Source: Shouchella patagoniensis (GTDB taxonomy: Bacteria > Bacillota > Bacilli > Bacillales > Bacillaceae_D). From it: 64,000 nt of DNA. Shown here piece after piece: positions 44,813 to 59,856 of this stretch. How positions within the stretch are numbered: the first letter of the stretch is position 1; each line of letters begins with the position of its first letter. The stretch lies in assembly GCF_002019705.1 (NCBI RefSeq), contig NZ_KV917377.1:432565-496564 (forward strand), written 5' to 3'. A program made the position numbers and the translations under genes. The notes under the pieces are model-generated. The model had not been told where the DNA came from, did no database searches, and saw only the letters and a list, made by a program, of their open reading frames with translations.

Positions 44813-46090
44813 ATGAAAAAATGTACTCGCTTACTTTGTATTCCTTTTGGTCTAGCAATTACCCTTTCCGCCTGTAGCAACGAGGATGCTAGCACTCCAA
44901 CTTCTGACTCTTCTGGTTCTAACAACAATGAAGAGACAATTGAACTACGAGTTGTGACAACAATGGCTGGTACGGACCCAGGAGGATTAGCATTTAATGA
45001 GTTGATTGAAGATTTCCAAAATGAAAACGATCACATTAGCATCATAAATGAATCACAATCTGCTGATGCAGGTGTCATTCGAACAAAGGTCAATACAGAC
45101 TTTTCTTCTAATAATGAGCCAGATTTAATGTTTTACTTTAATACAGTCGATGCACAGGGCATTATTGATCAAGGATTAGTCATCGATTTAGAAAAGGCTG
45201 AAGATCTTAATTTAGAAGGCTTTCACGAATTAATGTATGAACAACAACGAAATGAAAATGGTGGTCTTTATGCTGTTCCACAATCGGGATTTTATGAAGC
45301 ATTATTTGTAAACGAAGCATTATTTGAAGAACACGGAGTTGAACTACCAACCACATGGGAGTTATACGAAGAAGCGATTCGCGCTTTTGCTGAAACGGAC
45401 ATTATTCCAGTTGCGGTCTCAACTGAAGATTCGTATTACCTTGTTGAACATTATATTTTAGCTGCTGGTGGCATTGAAAACTTTCGTGCAGAGTTGTCCG
45501 AACAAGACGAGGCATGGGCAGAAGGTCTAGATAAAATTGCCGAGCACGCTGAGATGGGTGCATTCCCAGTTGATGCAGCAACAATTGATTTAGGAGCTTC
45601 TGCTCAATTATTCCATTCTGAACAAGCCGCGATGTTATTTGAAGGTTCATGGGCTTATGGAGGCATGAGTGATGCAGGAATTGCCGATAACGTCCGCCCA
45701 TATTATATGCCTGTATATGGGGATGGTGGCGAAACAGGTGATTTAGTTGGTGGTGCATCACAAGGTTGGTTTATTAGTACAAAAGCATATGAAGACGATT
45801 CCAAACATGATGCAGTTGTTGATTTCTTTAACTTTATTACGTCAGAAGAATCAATTGTCAAAATTGCAGATGCAACGATGCAAGTACCAGCAAAAGGCTC
45901 TTTATCGGAATTACCGGAAACAGTTGCATCCGGTCATGCTCTTTCAGAAGAAGCAACAGGGGTTGAAGCACCAATAAATGACCGTATTTATCCAGAAGCA
46001 TTTACACATATTCGTCAAAGCGTCCCTGAAATTGTAAACGGATCCAAAACAGGCGCTCAAGTCATTGAGGAAGCAGCAGAACTCGAATAA
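44813..46090 (+). CDS. Sugar ABC transporter binding lipoprotein
   Basis: 425 residues, family 1 solute-binding protein. Lipobox LSAC with Cys21 after a basic, hydrophobic signal; a Ser/Thr/Asn linker follows. The fold is recognisable from FNELIEDFQNENDHISI, the segment around FYEALFVNEALFEEHGVELPTTWELYEEAI, and ASQGWFIST. The sugar is unknown; family members take oligosaccharides or glycerol phosphate. The mature protein is acidic, as expected for an alkaliphile. ATG 44813 follows AAGGGGGG. First gene of a three-gene import operon. Confidence 0.9.
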   Translation: MKKCTRLLCIPFGLAITLSACSNEDASTPTSDSSGSNNNEETIELRVVTTMAGTDPGGLAFNELIEDFQNENDHISIINESQSADAGVIRTKVNTDFSSNNEPDLMFYFNTVDAQGIIDQGLVIDLEKAEDLNLEGFHELMYEQQRNENGGLYAVPQSGFYEALFVNEALFEEHGVELPTTWELYEEAIRAFAETDIIPVAVSTEDSYYLVEHYILAAGGIENFRAELSEQDEAWAEGLDKIAEHAEMGAFPVDAATIDLGASAQLFHSEQAAMLFEGSWAYGGMSDAGIADNVRPYYMPVYGDGGETGDLVGGASQGWFISTKAYEDDSKHDAVVDFFNFITSEESIVKIADATMQVPAKGSLSELPETVASGHALSEEATGVEAPINDRIYPEAFTHIRQSVPEIVNGSKTGAQVIEEAAELE

Positions 46091-55899: not shown

Positions 55900-57159
55900 T
55901 TAAAATGAATCGTTTTGTAATTCCTCAATTAATTCTATAAGCTCCCCATTAGAAGGGTCTAATTGGTAGGCCTTTTTGATTAAAACAAGAGCTTTCTTAC
56001 GGTCCCCTTCTTCAAGCATGAATTGTCCATATTCACTTAAGAATTCACTATCCTCTTGAAGGGTTAAATAAGCTTCTTCGTATAAAATTCTTGCCTCATT
56101 ATATTGTTCCATATCTGCTTTTGCATATGCCTGATACCAAGTTAAAAGCGAATCTGTCTCTCCAAATTCCTTAGCGTGGTTAATCAAATCATCCAATTCA
56201 ACCGCTCGTTCATTCTGCTTTAAGAAAGCAGATAACGTCTGTAAAGCTTCAACATTTGCTGGATTTAATGCAATTGCCTGACGTAAATATTGTTCAGCGC
56301 CAGTCGGATCTTGCATTTTTAATAACAATTTACCTGCAAGTAGTGGCAAAGCATCATTGAATTCATCCATTCTCATACCAGTCGTTAACGTCTCCAACGC
56401 TTCATCTAAACGATTTTCTGCTTCATATGCACGAGCTAACGGTACATATACACTAGTAAAGTCAGCATCCAGTGTTTTAACTGTCTCTAATTGCTCAATT
56501 GCAACAGTGTAATCCTTTTGTTGAAAGGCTGTAAAACCAAAATTAAATAGATGATTTGGCGACAATTCACTATTCTTTTGTTGATGATACAAAGATAGTG
56601 CGTCTTCAAATTGACCGTTAGCACTATAGGCTTCTGCTAACGCTAATCCAACATTCACTTCTCCAAGGTCAGCGTGTAAGGCTTGTTTTAAATAAGGAAT
56701 TGCCTTATTATATTCACCTTGATCTAAATAAAATTCGCCTAAAGCATATGTGATAATTAATTCATCTGGAGCTTGTTTTGCAGCTGCAAGAAGCTTTTGT
56801 TCTGCAACTTCATCAAGCGCCTGCAACTGGTACAAATCTGCAAGTAATAATTGCGCTTGAAGAAAACTTGGATCATCTACTCTTACATCAAGCAAATATT
56901 CAATCGCATCATCTTCTTGATCAGCATCAATCATTAATTCTGCAGCCATAACCAACAATGACCCTTCTTCTGGATATAACCCCATTAGCAGCTCAATTAA
57001 TGGCTGCGCTTTATCCACATGACCTAATTCATGGTAAAGCTCTGCTGCTTCAAAAATTTGCTCATGATCGTTGCTTTTAGCATATGCCGCTAAAAGATCA
57101 AGTGCTTGTTCTACGTTTCCTGTTTCAATGATCGTGTATATTTCCTGTTTTATAGTCAC
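55900..57159 (-). CDS. ypiA: TPR protein YpiA
   Basis: 419 residues, almost entirely tetratricopeptide repeats: for example ELIITYALGEFYLDQGEYNKAIPYLKQAL near 135, HLFNFGFTAFQQKDYTVAIEQLETV near 205, and KALVLIKKAYQLDPSNGELIELIEEL at the end. Cytoplasmic scaffold of unknown role. I prefer GTG 57159, seven bases from AAAGGAG; ATG 57165 is one base away from it. Confidence 0.88.
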   Translation of the reverse strand: MTIKQEIYTIIETGNVEQALDLLAAYAKSNDHEQIFEAAELYHELGHVDKAQPLIELLMGLYPEEGSLLVMAAELMIDADQEDDAIEYLLDVRVDDPSFLQAQLLLADLYQLQALDEVAEQKLLAAAKQAPDELIITYALGEFYLDQGEYNKAIPYLKQALHADLGEVNVGLALAEAYSANGQFEDALSLYHQQKNSELSPNHLFNFGFTAFQQKDYTVAIEQLETVKTLDADFTSVYVPLARAYEAENRLDEALETLTTGMRMDEFNDALPLLAGKLLLKMQDPTGAEQYLRQAIALNPANVEALQTLSAFLKQNERAVELDDLINHAKEFGETDSLLTWYQAYAKADMEQYNEARILYEEAYLTLQEDSEFLSEYGQFMLEEGDRKKALVLIKKAYQLDPSNGELIELIEELQNDSF

Positions 57160-57193
57160 AGACATGCTCCTTTAATTTGCTACTTTCTTTTAT

Positions 57194-57274: not shown

Positions 57275-57303
57275 TTGACTTTGTAAGCGTTTTCTATTAT
57301 TAT
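57275..57303 (+). promoter_or_regulatory. SigA promoter with cre-like site in the spacer
   Basis: TTGACT (57275-57280), 17 bases, TATTAT (57298-57303). Inside the spacer, 57282-57295, TGTAAGCGTTTTCT matches 13 of 14 positions of the CcpA consensus TGWAANCGNTNWCA. CcpA bound here would block the polymerase, so repression by good sugars is predicted. Confidence 0.7.
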
Positions 57304-57309
57304 CTAATT

Positions 57310-57406
57310 AGCGTATGGTTTCTCTCCACTCCTATCCATACATTATTAGCTTTTATAGCTAAACCCATTTGTAAACGCTTACGTTTGCAAATGGGCTTTT
57401 TTTTTT
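57310..57406 (+). ncRNA. Candidate CcpA-controlled small RNA, about 97 nt
   Basis: A plus-strand transcript from the promoter at 57275 would start near 57310 and end in the T10 tract at 57397-57406. No reading frame fits. Predicted folds: stem GTATGG / CCATAC (57313-57318 with 57336-57341) with a 17-base pyrimidine-rich loop (contains CUCUCCACUCCU, able to pair with GGAG-type ribosome binding sites); a small stem TTAGC / GCTAA (57346-57350 with 57358-57362); and a strong terminator. I know no named family with this sequence. Confidence 0.6.
57364..57406 (+). terminator. Terminator of the candidate small RNA
   Basis: Fourteen-pair stem CCCATTTGTAAACG / CGTTTGCAAATGGG (57364-57377 with 57382-57395), loop of four, then T10. 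It points along the plus strand, where no protein gene ends. Confidence 0.88.
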
Positions 57407-57443
57407 CAAAAAAAAAGCCATAGCAACTCATTATGCCATGACT
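57407..57443 (-). terminator. Terminator of the aromatic supraoperon (after aroA)
   Basis: Stem AGTCATGGC / GCTATGGCT read on the minus strand (57443-57435 with 57424-57416, two G-T pairs), then nine T. Confidence 0.8.
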
Positions 57444-57449
57444 CTTTTT

Positions 57450-58742
57450 TTAATCCATTAGCGAAGACAAATCAGCAAAGAAACGCGGATAAGACACATT
57501 GACTGCATCAAACTCTTGAAGGGTGACATCCCCTTGAGCGCATAATGCCGCAATTGCAAGTGCCATACCGATCCGATGATCTCCATGTGATATAACGCTA
57601 CCACCGGTTAAGGGTTTCCCCCCACGTATGATCATCCCATCGTCGGTCGCTTCGATGTCGGCCCCTAGCTTAGCAAGTTCTCCAACCACTGTATCAATTC
57701 GATTGGTTTCTTTCACTTTTAGCTCCTCTGCATCACGAATAATACTTGTTCCCTTTATTTGCGTTGCTAAGACTGCTAAAACAGGGATCTCATCGATAAG
57801 GGTCGGCACTTCTTCACCTTCTATGATAAATGGAGTTAATTCTCCACCACTAATTTGTACATTCCCCCGTGGTTCCCCACCATTATTTGACGTTTCATGA
57901 ATGGTTAGGTTTGCACCACTACGTTCTAGCACCTTTAAGATTCCAGCTCGTGTTGGGTTTAAACCTACATTTTTCATTTCGATACGACTACCTTCAACGA
58001 CGCATCCTGCTACTAAGAAAAAAGCGGCAGATGATATATCTCCTGGAACATGGACATTCGTTGCTTGTAACGATTGCCCCCCATTTATACATATAGTATT
58101 TTTCTCTTTTTCTACACTTACTCCAAAAGCTGTTAACATTCTCTCCGTGTGGTCTCTCGTTGCATTCGCCTCTGTTACAGACGTTCGTCCCTCTGCTTGA
58201 AGACCGGCCAATAAGATCGCTGATTTCACTTGCGCGCTCGCTACTGGCATAACATAATCAATTGCCTTTAATGTTCCTCCACGAACAGAGAGTGGCGTTT
58301 TATTACCAGAGTCTCTACCATCAATTTTAGTTCCCATTTGTTTCATTGGTTTTGTTACTCGCGCCATTGGTCTTGAAGCAATAGATTCGTCACCTGCGAT
58401 TGTTGAATAGAAAGGTCGTCCAGCTAACACACCTAACATTAAACGAATCGTCGTTCCAGAATTGCCGACATCAAGAACCGTCTTTGGTTCTTTAAGACCA
58501 TCTAATCCGTTACCTACAATTGTAACGGAATCATCTTTCTGCTCGATGTGAACGCCCATTTCTCGAAAACAAGCAATCGTGCTTAAACAGTCTGCTCCAG
58601 ACAAAAAACCGGTTACCTCGGTTGTTCCATTTGCCATAGCGCCAAACATAACTGCTCGGTGTGAGATTGATTTGTCACCTGGAATCATTAGCTCCCCAAC
58701 TAAACCTGAATGAGCTCTTGCTAATTTTTTTGAATTACTCAT
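57450..58742 (-). CDS. aroA: EPSP synthase (3-phosphoshikimate 1-carboxyvinyltransferase)
   Basis: 430 residues; shikimate pathway step six, the target of glyphosate. Motifs [20 protein letters not shown] near 22-41, [22 protein letters not shown] near 88, and the late [11 protein letters not shown]. The open frame extends 14 codons further, but ATG 58742 stands behind GGGGGAG. Called aroE in B. subtilis. Last gene of the supraoperon, with a terminator after it. Confidence 0.97.
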
Positions 58743-58752
58743 GGCTCCCCCT

Positions 58753-59856
58753 TTATAGAACATACGTCTCGTACATTTGATCATTTAATGCTGCTCTAGC
58801 AGATACTCGGTCTTGGTCAGAACGGAAACTTAACCGAAGCACTCCCATGATATCTTCTCTCGTTTCTAAAATGCGAATATTTGTGATACTAATTAATCTT
58901 TCGGCTAAGATATGAGTAACATCAGAAACGACACCTGGATGGTCGGGCACATCAACAAATAAATCGTAAAATGCTGGAATCGCTCCCTTATCTCGTTCTG
59001 GCAATCCCTCTCTAAACGCTTTAGCTTGTTGGAAGTACTGATAAATCTTTTCTCCATCTTGGTCGGATACAAATTGCTTAATGCATGTCATTTCAGTTTC
59101 CCATTCATCAAATAAACGCAACATTTCTTCCTTGTTATGTAATAAAATGTCCCGCCACATGATCGGACTAGCGGAAGCGATTCTCGTTATATCACGAAAT
59201 CCGCCTGCTGCAAGTCTTACTACATCAGGCTCTGTATGTTCCATTTTTTGGAGCTGATGAACAAGACTTGCTGCAATGATATGAGGGAAATGACTAACAG
59301 TACCTGCCATTTTGTCATGTTGCTTTGACTCTAGTTGCAAAAAACGGGCTTTCGTACCCTTAAGCAAATTTTGTAAAGCAATGATTTCACGCGGCTCAAC
59401 CGTCTTAGTAGGTGTTAGCACATAAAATGCATTTTCAAACAAATGCGCTTTTGCTGCCTCAACACCTGACTTATGTGAGCCAGCCATCGGATGACCACCA
59501 ATAAATGTCACTGATTCGTTAAAAATGGTAGCCGCCTCAACAATATCTTGCTTTGTTGAACCAACATCGGTAATGATGACTCCTGGTTTTAACGTATATG
59601 ACGCTAGTTCTTTCATTAATTCAATCGTTTTGCTAACTGGAGCTGCCAGAATGATAAAATCTGCATTGGCAGCTCCGCTTTTTATCTCATTTACAGCCTC
59701 ATCAATTACACCTAGAGATTTTGCGATGCTAAGTTGCTCTTTAGAAATATCAAATCCTTTAATGTGCACATGCCTATCTTGTTTGATGGAGAGCGCAATG
59801 GAACCACCAATCAAACCCATACCTATAATAAGAACTTCACGTTTCATTCCAACCAT
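58753..59856 (-). CDS. tyrA: Prephenate dehydrogenase
   Basis: 367 residues; NAD-dependent step to tyrosine. Rossmann motif [15 protein letters not shown] near the start, catalytic region [14 protein letters not shown] with its His near 120, and a C-terminal ACT domain from about 296 ([17 protein letters not shown]) for feedback by tyrosine. Start ATG 59856 lies five bases after GAGG; ATG 59847 and GTG 59859 are alternatives. Confidence 0.95.

Follow-up and report, generated by a model that had tools for sequence, protein, structure and literature searches.

What is encoded in the short gap between a ypiA-like gene and the 3' end of a trp-aro gene cluster in Shouchella patagoniensis, and which genes might it regulate? 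The gap lies in a stretch of 64,000 nucleotides that was analysed as a whole and is referred to here as the window. It is bounded by the ypiA-like gene (55900–57165, minus strand) and by the aroA-like gene for EPSP synthase (57450–58784, minus strand), names that we take over from the first-pass annotation of this DNA. That annotation had proposed a small RNA gene with a promoter, three hairpins and a binding site for CcpA, and each of these features is indeed present. A sigma-A-type promoter, TTGACT-N17-TATTAT, was recovered by promoter scan at 57275–57303 on the plus strand, and a consensus scan places the cre-like site TGTAAGCGTTTTCT, a 13/14 match, wholly within its spacer (57282–57295, plus strand). 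The predicted small RNA of about 97–99 nt (57308–57406, plus strand) would be divergent from the ypiA-like gene and convergent with the aroA-like gene. Its predicted fold, at −31.7 kcal/mol, has a z-score of −6.8 (none of 200 shuffled sequences folded as well) and consists of three plus-strand hairpins. The first, GTATGG-loop-CCATAC (57313–57341), is the predicted target-binding hairpin and exposes a highly conserved C/U loop of 17 nt, TTTCTCTCCACTCCTAT (57319–57335), which is complementary to GGAGTGGAGAG-containing ribosome-binding sites. It is followed by a smaller hairpin, TTAGCT-TTTAT-AGCTAA (57346–57362), and by an intrinsic terminator that was also found by terminator scan (57364–57406), with 14 pairs between 57364 and 57395 and a T-run at 57397–57406. 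A second cre-like site, TGTAAACGCTTACG, again a 13/14 match to the consensus, lies inside the terminator stem-loop at 57370–57383 on the plus strand, 88 bp downstream of the first. The predicted unit therefore has what is expected of the gene for a trans-acting small RNA, namely its own promoter, an intrinsic terminator and no apparent protein product. By eye, a minus-strand hairpin with a T-run can also be made out at about 57405–57450, back to back with this terminator; it presumably terminates the aro operon, and the terminator scan of the region did not report it.

In our view the best explanation of this locus, with a probability of roughly three in four, is a trans-acting base-pairing RNA that is repressed by CcpA, lowers the translation of amino acid biosynthesis genes when the preferred sugar is absent, and constitutes a new RNA family with members in many families of the class.

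Conservation of the predicted gene extends far beyond the species. A 201-base query was matched in all 13 genomes of the genus, and in the oriented alignment of these loci the promoter, the loop and the hairpins, including the terminator, are conserved while the flanks diverge. The 29-nt hairpin was found as a single copy in each of the 41 genomes of the family, covering 7/7 genera, and is exact in 40 of them. At up to three mismatches, the hairpin occurs in 54 of the 299 genomes of the order (23/116 genera), and a 21-nt loop core, searched with up to two mismatches, was recovered from 157 genomes in a class-wide sample of 398 (68/146 genera). Reversed patterns, used as controls in the family, order and class searches, gave 0 among the counts listed. 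The first-pass annotation would have been contradicted by a loop that varied freely in relatives; in fact no other part is as well conserved as the loop. The outer stem varies (GTATGG/CCATAC becomes ATATGG/CCATAT, among other forms, and the 3' side reads CCAATA in L101–L109), whereas scarcely any change is seen in the loop and inner stem. In 48 sequences of the first hairpin, 97.2% of cells were paired but changes on both sides affected only one of the six pairs, so that covariation is uninformative here because there is too little variation; an automatically built RNA model (R1) was set aside, since a poor structure had been chosen for it. Eight homologues that were folded gave z-scores from −2.7 to −5.9. 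The middle hairpin appears in four of them (L032, L062, L082 and L101) and is absent from L069, L070, L078 and L092, and the first hairpin is not formed in the predicted folds of L101 and L092. Among 84 distinct homologous loci, 74 have a promoter matching at least 9 of 12 positions no more than 62 nt upstream, as compared to about 11 in mononucleotide shuffles.

The link to CcpA depends on the two cre-like sites, which were scanned with an assumed cre consensus. Both strands of the whole 64 kb window contain 10 matches with at most one mismatch against 6.2 expected. This count is near expectation, and the weight of both sites therefore comes from their conservation and position. The sole perfect match to the consensus in the window is TGAAAACGATCACA, at 45022–45035. 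In the terminator segment, a match with at most one mismatch is present in 65 of the 84 loci, against 0.12 expected from dinucleotide shuffles, and in the promoter segment in 20, against 0.3 expected. A site in either segment is found in 69 loci, many of which have the terminator site and lack the promoter site; the remaining 15, including L080–L091, have none at one mismatch. The loci without a terminator site number 19 (L012, L053 and L079–L095), and among these L012 and three of the four loci L092–L095 (L092, L094 and L095) have a site in the promoter segment. The terminator site is the better conserved of the two cre-like sites. It escaped the first-pass annotation, which had linked the gene to CcpA through the promoter site, and it adds support to that link. 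A conserved cre-like site near or within the transcription unit is the usual mark of a CcpA regulon member, and the predicted gene appears to have one.

An alternative is that the loop pairs with its targets as proposed but that CcpA is inactive at the terminator site, where AAACG...CGTTT would be kept for the sake of the hairpin or the RNA. The cre-like site does coincide with the terminator stem in the window, and cre sites are recognized here from their sequence. We nevertheless consider this unlikely. In L070–L077, the cre core sits in the unpaired loop of the terminator, so that pairing is not the explanation for its presence there; the core of L005, L007 and L008 is turned round and matches on the other strand. 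A near-palindromic operator tolerates such a turned-round core. Because the core is kept both where it is unpaired and where it is turned round, selection probably acts on a DNA site. The terminator loop of L005, L007 and L008 reads TAAG instead of the CTTA of most relatives, as if the centre of the hairpin had been flipped. That CcpA could repress from the terminator site is made plausible by roadblocks described for it downstream of promoters: for rocG and sigL of Bacillus subtilis, CcpA bound at a cre downstream of the promoter is reported to stop elongation (PMC4348106). The likeness lies in the position of the cre downstream of a promoter; in the cases described there, the cre is located before or in protein genes, whereas here it would be built into the terminator hairpin of a small RNA (PMC4348106).

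The complement of the loop, GGATAGGAGTGGAGAGAAACC, resembles a ribosome-binding site, and the first-pass annotation had expected the loop to pair with purine-rich sites of this kind. In the 41 genomes of the family, the pattern GGAGTGGRGRGN{0,9}ATG has matches in 35, with 108 matches in total against 31 for the reversed control. From the loci returned and 60 further stretches we took 90 sites with an ATG, of which 69 open a frame of at least 30 amino acids. Target genes were assigned by their N-termini, one representative of each being named by NCBIfam. Of these 69 GGAGTGG[A/G]G[A/G]G sites, 35 precede hom (12), serC (9), the DAHP synthase/chorismate mutase gene (7), pheA (3), folD (2), serA (1) and a methionine-biosynthesis gene (1); among the remaining 34 are genes for transport, for regulators and for transposase-like proteins as well as unknown ones. 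When up to one mismatch is allowed, AGGAGTGGAGAG occurs at 25 positions in the genome from which the window comes, counting the small RNA gene itself, and the reversed control at 9. Near-perfect sites precede open frames for metE, DAHP synthase, sorbitol-6-phosphate dehydrogenase, a urea-carboxylase-like protein, pyridoxine kinase, hslO and an oxidoreductase-like protein, and only metE and DAHP synthase among these named genes belong to amino acid biosynthesis. The hom site of this genome contains a 10-base run and its serC site is weak.

Raw motif counts are not used here in support of these candidate targets. Across the class, the exact motif GGAGTGGAGAGN{0,9}ATG has a match in 93 of the 157 genomes that carry the RNA and in 47 of the 241 that lack it. 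The ratio of motif to reversed control, however, is 147:49 in the former and 60:20 in the latter; as it is equal with and without the RNA, the class-wide count was rejected as evidence. At least two of the matches in RNA-bearing genomes, those of G516 and G548, fall on the strand opposite the RNA's own loop. The looser family pattern (108:31) is little better, and the motif occurs at about three times the control everywhere. The genes next to the predicted RNA were also tried as targets and rejected, since pairing at −20 kcal/mol or better was found for only 4 of 48 aroA, 0 of 10 tyrA and 0 of 6 hisC sites and was mostly weak. In other RNA-bearing families, the exact motif precedes an acyl-CoA-dehydrogenase-like gene in L244, L246 and L247, and the exact loop complement precedes a gene in L266 that has no NCBIfam match at 1e-80 and whose sequence resembles that of a cobalamin-binding mutase subunit. 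Because other genes lie behind the loop complement in L244, L246, L247 and L266, targets may differ by lineage. An ABC ATPase gene has the exact motif before it in L256, L257 and L259.

Evidence for pairing comes instead from the energies of orthologous sites. For 40 hom and serC sites of the family, the median pairing energy with the loop is −23.4 kcal/mol, as against −13.0 kcal/mol for 378 background ribosome-binding sites, and 65% of the former but 5% of the latter reach −20 kcal/mol or better, although the Shine-Dalgarno pairing of the hom and serC sites is weaker. One could argue that the loop is kept for binding a protein or another RNA and that it matches ribosome-binding sites as a by-product of Shine-Dalgarno likeness. 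The near-invariance of the loop and inner stem and the equal motif-to-control ratios described above would fit such a view. Yet when the loop was shuffled 200 times with its composition kept, no version produced as large a difference between the hom and serC sites and 150 background sites, so that the complementarity exceeds what chance would give. In addition, strong matches are rare in genomes without the RNA. Because hom and serC had been chosen from the matches themselves, the comparison among other families is the only independent one. For hom, −20 kcal/mol or better is reached in 27 of 37 family genomes, in 7 of 15 RNA-bearing genomes of other families of the order, and in 4 of 52 genomes lacking the RNA; outside the family, the medians are −19.1 and −13.6 kcal/mol with and without the RNA (Mann-Whitney p = 1.5e-4, phylogeny being ignored). 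For serC, the corresponding figures are 18 of 40, 4 of 11 and 0 of 51 (p = 0.001, phylogeny again ignored). Parsing errors, such as those that affected L325 and L330 in an earlier set, may also be present in a few serC rows of the family, which would weaken the family figure. We therefore regard the by-product explanation as improbable, and the conserved loop appears to be a seed that is complementary to the translation starts of its predicted targets.

The samples behind these comparisons were defined as follows. Presence of the RNA was taken from the hairpin and loop searches of the order and class; G050, whose two-mismatch match at locus L098 lacks trp-aro and ypiA neighbours, was counted among the genomes without it. 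The hom set lacking the RNA consists of 52 of 86 such genomes with a hom match. In the family, G002, G003 and G005, which have only a distant paralogue, and G004, which has none, were left out. The serC set comprised 15 genomes with the RNA and 52 of 67 without it that had a match, of which 4 and 1, respectively, were dropped for having no start motif. G004 keeps the RNA and has neither a hom nor a serC match, and several serC sites of Shouchella are weak.

Neighbouring genes were mapped by tblastn, with the genes of the window as queries and the 84 distinct loci, including about 1.5 kb on each side, as subjects. A relative of aroA, tyrA, hisC or trpA lies next to the predicted RNA in 80 loci, the exceptions being L092–L095, and a ypiA relative is present in 52. 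This constant company might suggest that the element acts in cis, as an attenuator in the ypiA leader or as the processed 3' end or terminator of the aro operon, and that it has no targets in trans; in 42 loci the aro genes are indeed upstream and co-directional. In 38 others, including that of the window, they are downstream and convergent, and ypiA is divergent from the RNA in 37. The gene has thus kept its place, with an orientation that is reversed from one lineage to another. The occurrence of the same loop in both orientations argues against a cis role and for a role in trans, as does the presence of a promoter in the large majority of the loci. Four genomes of family f73 hold two copies of the loop each, and the copy examined in each of them (L092–L095) has neither trp-aro nor ypiA genes beside it. 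A purely cis-acting element is, in view of these arrangements, very improbable.

Hardly any credence can be given to the idea that a tiny protein (MVSLHSYP...), translated from an ATG in the hairpin stem, is the conserved product: the first-pass annotation overlooked a 15-codon ATG frame at 57315–57362 when it saw no reading frame, and 81 of the 84 loci have this ATG in frame, but no ribosome-binding site was seen before it in the window, the first 7 codons show no silent change among the 81 loci (which, as these were selected by the loop, is partly built in), the C-terminus is variable with the frame running beyond the T-run in 25 of the 81, and the other 3 loci have no ATG.

The CcpA-repressed, trans-acting RNA that we favour would work as follows. 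The sigma-A-type promoter would start an RNA of about 97 nt that ends at the strong terminator. With glucose or another preferred sugar present, CcpA together with HPr(Ser-P) would keep the RNA off: bound to the terminator site, it would block the polymerase some 60–75 bases after the start, and in some lineages, including that of the window, the second site over the promoter would add to the repression. Once the sugar is exhausted, the RNA would accumulate and its C/U loop would pair with purine-rich ribosome-binding sites, the predicted targets being hom, serC, DAHP synthase, pheA, folD, metE and others that vary by lineage. Such pairing would hide the Shine-Dalgarno sequence and decrease translation. 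If true, this would provide a post-transcriptional link between carbon catabolite control and amino acid production, would explain why hom, serC and DAHP synthase have unusual ribosome-binding sites in these bacteria, and would provide a case in which the same bases serve both as a repressor site and as a terminator. A bolder version, to which we give even odds, is that of a class-wide, GcvB-like master RNA of Bacilli whose main switch is the operator in its own terminator hairpin, operator and terminator being one, and which leaves its mark, throughout whole families, on the ribosome-binding sites of biosynthesis genes that are otherwise unrelated. Culturable species such as Shouchella clausii permit direct testing. 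As judged from these genome comparisons, the observation made by the first-pass annotation is real and larger than first described: its interpretation is supported, while the terminator site, the class-wide spread and the amino acid biosynthesis targets had been missed.

Several known RNAs invite comparison. RoxS/RsaE and FsrA are Gram-positive small RNAs whose C-rich segments are directed toward Shine-Dalgarno sequences, with other seeds and other regulators; neither was among the 14 matches of a permissive Rfam search of the region. GcvB, from another phylum, is a longer RNA that is Hfq-dependent and controlled by glycine, whereas the predicted RNA has a C/U anti-Shine-Dalgarno loop and would be controlled by CcpA. 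Rfam, we presume, holds a GcvB family, and no match above threshold pointed to it in the window or in 20 homologous loci, so that the likeness is a functional analogy only. In Escherichia coli, GcvB is described as a global small RNA that represses amino acid biosynthesis and uptake genes and that pairs with aroG at the translation start (PMC11878033). Closer in regulation are RosA (S345) of Bacillus subtilis and RsaI (RsaOG) of Staphylococcus, reported to be stand-alone small RNAs under CcpA control (PMC8216469; for RsaI also PMC9217828). Both are said to bind C-rich small RNAs via G-rich regions; RsaI is described as conserved in Staphylococcus and not in Bacilli, and RosA as having a predicted CcpA site at −1 to +12 (PMC8216469). 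Control by CcpA would be common to all three, but in the RNA predicted here the conserved exposed segment is C/U-rich instead of G-rich, the candidates for pairing are mRNAs, and it is the terminator that contains the most conserved cre-like site. Finally, scr5239 of Streptomyces is a conserved RNA with a short conserved core that is reported to repress metE; it differs in belonging to another phylum, in its length of 159 nt, in its core GCUGCGG, in binding inside the coding region and in being induced by methionine (PMC4365011).

The predicted RNA itself appears to be undescribed. Among the 4227 Rfam families, none reached its gathering threshold at the region of the RNA or in 20 homologous loci; no model in the copy used recognizes it, despite a loop that is nearly invariant over many families. 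The permissive search gave as its best match SNORA40 (27.4 bits against a threshold of 51, minus strand) and, on the plus strand, SR6_antitoxin (22.9 bits against 55). Among viral contigs, an exact search with an 18-base loop pattern found nothing, and a 101-base query gave no phage match and one weak match of 37 bases, to an E. coli plasmid. Among the matches listed, the titles and opening lines of abstracts of open papers on CcpA-controlled small RNAs and on CcpA and amino acid genes contained no description of this RNA, nor, again among the matches listed, did the open literature, excluding supplements, on Paenibacillus or Brevibacillus, on ypiA/aroE, and on small RNAs of Shouchella or alkaliphiles. 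Four 12-mers of the loop and its complement retrieved, among open papers, no bacterial small RNA study by title. Unnamed small RNAs of Paenibacillus are reported in the supplements of one study (PMC5670726), and the RNA may be present, without a name, in the tables of some RNA-seq study. The only above-threshold Rfam match in the whole window was a pan motif (RF01749; 37348–37437, minus strand), which at 49.9 bits exceeds its gathering score.
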